Assembly (NCBI RefSeq): GCF_029689945.1
Contig: NZ_CP121451.1
Span: 682,001-746,000 of the forward strand
Origin: Paenibacillus amylolyticus
GTDB lineage: Bacteria > Bacillota > Bacilli > Paenibacillales > Paenibacillaceae
Length of the DNA: 64,000 nt
Direction of reading: 5' to 3'
Shown: positions 62,505-63,084 of the stretch, in pieces
How the letters are laid out: each line of letters opens with the position of its first letter
How positions within the stretch are numbered: position 1 is the first letter of the stretch
Made by a program: the position numbers and the translations under genes
The notes under the pieces: generated by a model
The model's database searches: none
What the model saw: only the letters and a program-made list of their open reading frames with translations
Told to the model about the DNA's origin: nothing

Positions 62505-62619
62505 ATGGCGGAACCGACGGGATACTCTCACTTCGTTCGAGACTGCGAAGCTTATGCTCTCGAAGTGAATGCTCCGACGAACCCAAAGACGGATTCTCAT
62601 CCCTGAAGCATATACAAGA
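62505..62619 (-). mobile_element. tRNA-tail-duplicating element downstream of tRNA-Asp
   Basis: In transcript order the intact tRNA-Asp is followed by about 95 bases of new sequence and then by a second copy of its own last 19 bases (62505-62523 repeats 62619-62637). The new sequence shares TTCGTTCGAGACTGCGAAGC, CTCCGACGAACC and GATTCTCATCCCT with the element after tRNA-Glu. In RNA it can form CACTTCG/CGAAGTG and GAGA/TCTC stems. It encodes no protein. The same place in the first array has no insert. Confidence 0.7.
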
Positions 62620-62697
62620 TGGCGGAACCGACGGGATTCGAACCCGCGATCTCCTGCGTGACAGGCAGGCATGTTAGGCCAACTACACCACGGTTCC
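62620..62697 (-). tRNA. tRNA-Asp(GTC), second array
   Basis: 78 nt with encoded CCA, complete. The partial copy of its tail at 62505-62523 is not a tRNA. Confidence 0.95.
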
Positions 62698-62724
62698 AGA
62701 TCACTTTCACAAAAGAAAGCTTAA

Positions 62725-62798
62725 TTGCGGGGGCAGGATTTGAACCTGCGGCCTTCGGGTTATGAGCCCGACGAGCTACCGGGCTGCTCCACCCCGCG
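62725..62798 (-). tRNA. Initiator tRNA-fMet(CAT), second array
   Basis: 74 nt, with the C1-A72 mismatch; same as the first-array copy. Confidence 0.95.
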
Positions 62799-62815
62799 TC
62801 GTTATAAAGATAATA

Positions 62816-62891
62816 TGGTGGAGGCTGAGGGGATCGAACCCCCGACCCTCTGCTTGTAAGGCAGATGCTCTCCCAGCTGAGCTAAGCCTCC
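62816..62891 (-). tRNA. tRNA-Val(TAC), second array
   Basis: 76 nt with encoded CCA. Confidence 0.95.
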
Positions 62892-62896
62892 ATATG

Positions 62897-63012
62897 ATGA
62901 CCCGTAGGGGATACTCTCTCTTCGTTCGAGACTGCGAAGCAGTTGCTAACGAAGTACATCCTCCGACGAACCTTTGGGATTCTCATCCCTTGTTGAAGCA
63001 ATAGGTATTGCT
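62897..63012 (-). mobile_element. tRNA-tail-duplicating element downstream of tRNA-Glu
   Basis: About 100 bases of new sequence, then a second copy of the last 16 bases of tRNA-Glu (ATGACCCGTAGGGGAT on the plus strand at 62897-62912). Shares its core blocks with the tRNA-Asp element. In RNA it can form CTTCGTT/AACGAAG enclosing CTGC-TTC-GCAG, and GGGAT/ATCCC at the ends. The first array has the same tRNA without the insert. Confidence 0.7.
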
Positions 63013-63013
63013 A

Positions 63014-63084
63014 TGACCCGTAGGGATTCGAACCCCTGTTACCTCCGTGAAAGGGAGGTGTCTTAACCCCTTGACCAACGGGCC
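63014..63084 (-). tRNA. tRNA-Glu(TTC), second array, one base short in the T-stem
   Basis: 71 nt. The T-stem strand reads GTAGGGATT where the first-array copy has GTAGGGGATT, so one pair is lost. The duplicate tail at 62897 keeps the four G, which points to a homopolymer read error. Confidence 0.9.

Follow-up and report, generated by a model that had tools for sequence, protein, structure and literature searches.

Units ending in a copy of their own tRNA's 3′-end follow tRNA genes in Paenibacillus and other Bacillota and very probably belong with the tRNA-linked repeats (RtT RNA) of Escherichia coli

Escherichia coli has 22 tRNA-linked repeats, or TLRs (Egan and Landy 1978; Rudd 1999; cited after PMC8144298). 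They lie at ten loci, and each ends in 18–19 bp identical to the 3′-end of the tRNA or rRNA upstream (PMC8144298). According to the available text of that paper they have no known function, an early claim, made for one of them, concerning recovery from starvation having been retracted after the effect was traced to a neighbouring reading frame. The TLRs linked to 5S rRNA, which are conserved in Enterobacteriales, lie between two terminators; they are transcribed through terminator 1 and processed, RNAs of about 173 and 115 nt having been detected, and the tail copy is proposed there to act as a signal for processing by RNase E (PMC8144298). RNAs of the RtT family have also been mentioned elsewhere. 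Two were seen by Northern blot in Actinobacillus pleuropneumoniae, where the accessible passage describes them as upstream of tRNA genes (PMC4986893); a table of Salmonella insertions and deletions places rtT RNA among the variable-number tandem repeats (PMC2658671); a tandem GA motif is reported in RtT RNA (PMC7657543); and in Enterobacteria rtT-like repeats that precede ordinary genes, gatY and rbfA among them, are said to belong to BIMEs (PMC2965389). A Paenibacillus transcriptome study set aside its Rfam matches to motifs of other bacterial groups, and its available text makes no mention of TLR or RtT elements (PMC5670726); PMC11623569, in the part available, merely cites the 1991 paper of Bosl and Kersten. 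No report of TLR or RtT elements in Bacillota was found in the literature searched, which consisted mostly of journals that require no subscription.

In a window of 64,000 nt of the Paenibacillus amylolyticus genome (the whole stretch of DNA that was analysed), the second tRNA array runs on the minus strand, and ARAGORN together with direct reading of the sequence placed a unit behind tRNA-Asp and another behind tRNA-Glu within positions 62505–63086. Read in the direction of the tRNA, each has a short spacer followed by a core and then by a repeat of the 3′-end of its own tRNA, as an earlier note on this DNA had claimed; all the features given here lie on the minus strand. For tRNA-Asp(GTC) (62620–62697; ARAGORN), the 19-nt repeat ATGGCGGAACCGACGGGAT (plus-strand letters) is found at both 62619–62637 (the proximal copy) and 62505–62523 (the distal copy). 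The two are identical, lie 95 nt apart and comprise 18 bases of the tRNA plus one base past its end. The spacer spans 62604–62618 and the core, which includes the closing helix GGGAT/ATCCC, 62519–62603, these limits being taken from the covariance model R1 (85.3 bits; this copy is in the R1 seed). tRNA-Glu(TTC) (63012–63086; ARAGORN) has a proximal tail of 15 nt at 63013–63027, with one C fewer in the T stem, and a distal tail of 16 nt with CCCC at 62897–62912, which has one extra G on the plus strand; these copies are 100 nt apart. The Glu core lies at 62908–62989 (R1 100.1 bits; also a seed copy), and its spacer (62990–63012) is predicted to fold into a hairpin, GCAATA..TATTGC, which by eye several related Glu spacers retain with altered letters. 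Tails of 19 and 16 bases had been proposed: the Asp figure stands as given, and the Glu figure holds only if a 1-base gap is allowed in the C run, the exact identity covering 13 nt. The distances between tail copies agree with the 95–100 bases previously assigned to the core, and the sequence blocks thought to be common to the two cores are present in both.

The first tRNA array (22982–24577) carries both tRNAs without inserts (tRNA-Asp at 23857–23934 and tRNA-Glu at 24135–24206; ARAGORN and sequence), as had been noted. The insertion point is exact, at the junction of T loop and T stem, and the spacing between tRNA-Glu and tRNA-Val is preserved past the second tail. Past the second tail the sequence looks like the empty site, so the original tail may be the second of the two; that the tails were made at insertion, as earlier suggested, is one possibility. 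The description of the inserts as non-coding and structured, with the tRNA gene keeping a complete 3′-end, remains apt. At E ≤ 1 neither insert had a match in Rfam. In the window no terminator-like site stands between tRNA-Asp or tRNA-Glu and its unit, so the units should be included in the transcript of the array. It is very unlikely that the inserts are assembly chimeras, because the same insert occurs behind the same tRNA in other genomes. As a separate matter, the tRNA-Glu T stem reads CCC in three arrays of this genome (window 63012–63086; L012 1525–1599; L013 775–849) and CCCC in the empty tRNA-Glu of the first array, in the other Paenibacillus Glu genes compared and in both distal tail copies; the missing C may be a real change or a homopolymer assembly error.

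When the whole stretch was compared with its genome by BLAST, the result pointed to further copies. R1 was built from eight copies in the genome, and its search of the 6.83-Mb genome returned those same eight (best E 1e-24): the Asp and Glu units of the window, one behind another tRNA-Glu (L012), one behind tRNA-Ser-GCT (L011), three in tandem behind a tRNA-Arg-TCT (L009) and one behind another tRNA-Arg-TCT (L010). The duplicated stretch can exceed the tRNA end, reaching 26 nt at Ser, and the Arg repeat unit includes a hairpin and T run that by eye form a terminator. At L009 a pattern scan found this hairpin on the transcribed strand only once, following the third unit; its two other occurrences were on the opposite strand. 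A degenerate fourth core lies beyond the third Arg unit there (L009 800–1140), followed further on by several repeats of the TTCGTTAG type. At L010 (1268–1300), little of the tRNA part is left in the distal tail of the second Arg-TCT unit, which joins directly to a terminator-like T run; it is a decay intermediate.

Among relatives, R1 matched in 43 of 59 genomes (the own genome included), which belong to 7 of 17 genera. A broader covariance model, R2, matched in 36 of 398 genomes of the class, at least 3 of the 36 by chance, with 31 in the same family. Outside the family, five class-wide genomes were seen: G071 and G081 bear units behind tRNAs, and G087, G284 and G421, in which the fetched locus had no tRNA, were taken as chance matches. 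A further class-wide match, G167 (E 0.006), fell outside the loci inspected. A phylum-wide draw gave matches at E ≤ 0.001 in 7 of 398 genomes, five of them again in the same family; the others were G801, from another class, with two tandem units behind tRNA-Ser-GCT, and G600, which was discarded as chance since no tRNA was on the fetched locus. An exact pattern search returned 49 matching sequences, all from Paenibacillus or Chengkuizengella.

The fetched loci represent part of the matches listed by the R1 search of relatives and the R2 search of the class; removal of repeats from overlapping loci reduced the R1 matches on them (104 + 77) to 174. A same-strand tRNA was present upstream of 172 of these 174 distinct matches, the other two lying at a contig end. 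The nearest upstream tRNA was Arg-TCT in 78 cases, Glu in 34, Ser-GCT in 20, Asp in 19, Ser-TGA in 6, Ser-GGA in 5, Arg-ACG in 5, Ser-CGA in 4 and Asn in 1 (a match that overlaps a Ser gene), with none in 2. No Bacillota unit was seen behind 5S among the units parsed. A covariance search beyond the window, which the earlier note had proposed, thus found the cores elsewhere, behind tRNAs and mostly with matching tRNA tails. Two other loci deserve mention. In one relative (L071 ∼908–998), tRNA-Ser(GCT) runs almost into the core, and the spacer and first closing-helix strand are missing; this is a natural deletion variant. At L206 (1554–1621), an Rfam Bacillaceae-1 RNA above its gathering score lies between two tRNA genes in an array with TLR-like units.

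To compare the tails, 216 units were used, each no more than 600 nt from a tRNA on its own strand and with a T arm that could be recognised; they come from related strains and so are not independent. Scoring covered 13 bases per unit, the tails of the window being read at full length. In the units closest to the tRNA, 119 of 154 carried the tail of their own tRNA at 13/13 bases, 131 had at least 12 and 23 had 11 or fewer. Control comparisons with tails of other amino acids (892) never exceeded 9/13. Among units farther from the tRNA, 22 of 62 had a perfect tail, against the 119 of 154 first units. The 13-nt scores, the control and the distal decay together show that the tail is specific to the host tRNA, as had been claimed, and that it decays with distance from it. 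The copy also varies in step with the tRNA: the Asp tail reads GTCGGTTCCGCCA in Paenibacillus and GTCAGCTCCGCCA in G043 and its relatives. Some first units, such as those at L010 and L049, have lost the tail.

The core, ∼80 nt long, contains four predicted helices: P0 (GGGAU/AUCCC), H1 (GAACC/GGUUC), H2 (CGGAGC/GCUUCG) and H3 (CUC/GAG, longer in some units). At Arg-ACG (T arm GAGTTCGAATCTC), P0 reads GAGAU/AUCUC in several cores and is partly paired in others; P0 thus tends to follow the T stem of the host tRNA. Over 117 distinct rows of an alignment fitted to the structure, 90.6 percent of helix cells paired. Two-sided changes occupied 75 cells (H3 62, P0 10, H2 3, H1 0); shuffles gave 18.8, and sliding the partner gave no more than 32. 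Counted instead as pairs that show any such change, the result did not exceed that of shuffles (6 against 5.2; 207/500 shuffles). RNAalifold alone, run on alignment A6, recovered only H2 and H3. This alignment was obtained from 165 cores, reduced to 68 by a 90 percent identity filter, to 46 when 22 degenerate cores were set aside, and then to 32 sequences, two of which are near-equivalents. As predicted helices, P0 and H3 are supported and H1 and H2 are consistent with the comparison. The arms CACTTCG/CGAAGTG and CTTCGTT/AACGAAG, previously put forward as the structure of the element, were dropped: they are not kept in the Arg copies, and the comparative data favour other helices.

Pairing between the flank preceding P0 and the acceptor part of the tail was analysed in the 121 first units whose tails matched at 11 or more of the 13 bases. 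At Arg-TCT the predicted energy was -15.0 kcal/mol with own tails and -9.3 with foreign ones. The pairing was clear at Arg-TCT and Arg-ACG, weaker at Ser-CGA and Ser-TGA, and absent at Ser-GCT, Ser-GGA, Glu and Asp; over the 121 units, swapped tails paired equally well or better in 45 percent of comparisons. An extended mimic of the acceptor stem was therefore rejected as a general feature, being clear in two of eight tRNA groups and weak in two more.

The statement in the earlier note that no known element type fits proved wrong: the TLRs and RtT RNA of E. coli agree with the inserts in where they lie, in having a tail copy and a closing helix, in forming tandem copies and in how terminators are arranged. 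In E. coli K-12, the RtT model RF00391 at its gathering score reports four units at tyrT/tyrV, five at lysT/W/Y/Z/Q, one at proK and two at serX, with matches in 4 of the 13 tRNA regions fetched and none in the other 9. All 12 units end in an exact 18–19-nt copy of the 3′-end of the preceding tRNA, and so do three units picked by eye behind argV, argZ and argQ. These three Arg units (argV-argY-argZ-argQ, L229) have full tails yet go unreported by RF00391 at gathering score; they and the Lys units seem to form a shorter subtype (AGGATAACGTTGC). P0 follows the tRNA in E. coli too, being GGGGAAGGAT at tyrV (10 bp), GGGGGGAT at Ser (8 bp), GGGAGGAT at argV (8 bp), GAGGAT at Pro (6 bp), AGGAT at four Lys units (5 bp) and 4–5 bp long at the other Arg units; among the 15 units examined, exact P0 pairing was not found at tyrT and lysQ. 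The start GGRTGAGAA is present in 7 of the 15 E. coli units, and under a relaxed pattern G[AG]TGAGAA occurs in 97 of 154 Bacilli first units; a first hairpin ending in GGUUCG, again under a relaxed pattern, is present in 149 of the 154. By eye, a terminator hairpin stands between tRNA and unit, and again after the unit, at serX, proK and the Ser locus of G801; at Paenibacillus Arg-TCT the hairpin between tRNA and unit is likewise repeated after it (also by eye).

When RF00391 was run at E ≤ 10 on 12 Bacilli loci, it gave five matches, all on units of the family (5 of the 22 units there) and agreeing with them in strand and register. Their scores were 20–24 bits (best 24.1; E 0.95–9.3), far below the gathering score of 45. 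Three are identical tandem copies in L115 and two are near-identical copies in L206, so they amount to about two independent cases. RF00391 found nothing at E ≤ 1 in 7 Bacillota genomes and nothing at E ≤ 0.01 in 299 Bacillota genomes. In the opposite direction, the four best matches of R2 in the tyrT region were its four RtT units, at weak values (E 0.08–0.44), and R2 found no useful match on the E. coli Ser, Pro, Lys and Arg units. Neither of the two covariance models (R2 and RF00391) thus connects the E. coli set significantly with that of Bacilli. That the units share one plan with those of E. coli is firm. Common descent of the two sets is likely, because of the shared plan and motifs, and not proven.

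We hold with high confidence that the two inserts of the window are tRNA-linked repeats of the TLR/RtT type. The best overall explanation, to which we assign a probability of roughly 0.78, is that they are TLR units that imitate the T arm of their own tRNA and in which the tail copy may serve as a processing signal. Each unit consists of a spacer, the four-helix core and a second copy of the 3′ strands of the T stem and acceptor stem of the tRNA. The first strand of the core, GGGAU (GAGAU at most tRNA-Arg-ACG genes), pairs with the AUCCC or AUCUC that heads the second tail, so that unit and tail together mimic the T arm, in some lineages also the acceptor stem, of that tRNA. Within tRNA arrays the unit would be transcribed together with the tRNA; where a terminator intervenes, it would be reached by read-through. 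The 5′-end of the unit would be made by the normal 3′ processing of the tRNA, judging from work in E. coli, and for a signal that directs maturation of its 3′-end the tail copy, together with P0, is the strongest candidate, one through which the nucleases of tRNA maturation may trim the 3′-end of a short-lived small RNA. By this analogy, a released, processed RNA seems slightly on the probable side. The tandem copies would arise most simply by unequal crossing-over between tails.

The earlier note had taken the inserts for a small mobile element. A mobile DNA element entering the T arm of tRNA genes through a recombinase acting in trans (a unit of this length could not encode one), with the tail either brought along or duplicated and new insertions displacing older copies, would account for the exact insertion point and the kept Glu-Val spacing, for the greater decay of distal tails in tandem arrays (22/62 perfect in later units, 119/154 in first ones) and for repeated units that can include the terminator. 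The rtT-like repeats in BIMEs reported, in the available text, upstream of ordinary genes in Enterobacteria (PMC2965389) fit it as well, since they mean that rtT-like sequence may lie away from tRNAs in that group. Among the fetched matches, however, neither copies at unrelated positions nor recent spread were seen: a tRNA precedes each confident copy whose upstream side could be read, and one Glu core had no match in phage or plasmid collections. The only pattern match on a viral contig (L182) was taken as chance, its 10.9-kb locus having no tRNA and the 1 kb around it neither tail copy nor closing strand. Moreover, the cores cluster by tRNA type and not by genome. For 80 distinct first-unit cores from 28 genomes of the window's genus, mean identity was 0.85 for cores that share the tRNA but not the genome, 0.81 for cores that share the genome but follow tRNAs of other amino acids and 0.80 when both differed; together with a variant H2 seen only at Arg-TCT in one genus (L216–L218), these values point to descent by tRNA type. 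Unequal crossing-over suffices for changes in tandem number, the rtT RNA of Salmonella being itself listed as a variable-number tandem repeat (PMC2658671, available part). We consider a mobile element unlikely.

A different folding, in which the 5′ acceptor strand of the tRNA pairs with either its own or the distal tail, the core thus being inserted in the T loop and acting as a switch of tRNA output, is quite improbable. By its identity the distal tail is indeed complementary to that strand, and in the window the proximal T stem of tRNA-Glu is one C short where the distal tail keeps the C; but this C may be missing through assembly error, the flank upstream of the unit offers the distal tail another pairing partner at Arg and some Ser loci, and at many loci a terminator hairpin, seen by eye, intervenes. 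It is even harder to credit that the units are functionless debris, partial tandem duplications of tRNA 3′-ends whose cores resemble one another by common origin only. The decay of distal units, the tail-less first units at L010 and L049 and the covariation measure that does not rise above shuffles would suit such debris, whereas the compensatory changes in the closing helix and third hairpin, the conservation of the tail at first units and the plan common with E. coli do not. Guide RNAs, T-boxes, ribozymes, attC sites and group I introns were considered and dropped for want of a matching motif.

With TLR units that imitate their own tRNA as the preferred reading, what is new here is the reach into Bacillota, the set of tRNAs used in that phylum and the rule by which the host tRNA sets both tail and closing helix. 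A class whose function is not agreed would extend beyond E. coli into distant bacteria and be more widespread than the available parts of the literature describe. In Paenibacillus, Chengkuizengella and other Bacillota the same plan is seen at tRNAs of eight isoacceptor groups, which adds sequence variety for work on structure, and the tail copy and matching closing helix are suggested as its constant features. Further hosts with several copies each become available for probing the tail copy as a processing signal, and annotators are cautioned that a tRNA tail repeated downstream of its tRNA does not, taken alone, mark the scar left by an integrated island. A more speculative proposal, which we put forward tentatively and with more doubt than belief, is that TLR/RtT elements form one ancient or widely exchanged class of tRNA-linked RNAs, present in at least two phyla, each lineage of which is locked to one tRNA. 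A lineage would then evolve with the T stem and tail of its tRNA because the unit must imitate the 3′ half of that tRNA, and the imitation might give the unit access to the tRNA 3′-end machinery, either for its own maturation or as a competitor.

Among known systems, the RrA, RrB and RrF small RNAs of the E. coli rRNA operons, likened here by description, also consist of a TLR between two terminators and arise by read-through; they differ in having a 5S rRNA tail and in binding CsrA and Hfq in vitro, according to the available text of PMC8144298. 3′ETS-leuZ is likewise an RNA from a tRNA trailer, and a functional one, but it base-pairs with RyhB and RybB, and a tail copy is not part of its description in the same text (PMC8144298). 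RtT RNA (RF00391) shares the register of the Bacilli units, and the GGRUGAGAA start and first hairpin ending in GGUUCG, as read from the E. coli Tyr, Ser and Pro units, may be shared as well; the second and third hairpins differ. The host genes differ as well, being Tyr, Lys, Pro, Ser and Arg tRNAs plus 5S rRNA in E. coli (PMC8144298, in the part available) and Asp, Glu, Ser and Arg tRNAs among the Bacillota units parsed. So does the core, which is ∼80 nt in Bacilli, and in E. coli ∼100 nt at tyrV, Ser and Pro and 50–55 nt at most Lys and Arg units. The tail is 18–19 nt in E. coli, and 19 (Asp) and 16 nt (Glu) in the window, 13 bases having been compared elsewhere. In both groups the TLR lies directly downstream of a tRNA on the same strand and ends in a copy of its 3′-end, occurs singly or in tandem, has at some loci a terminator hairpin between tRNA and unit, and is closed by a helix that matches the T stem.
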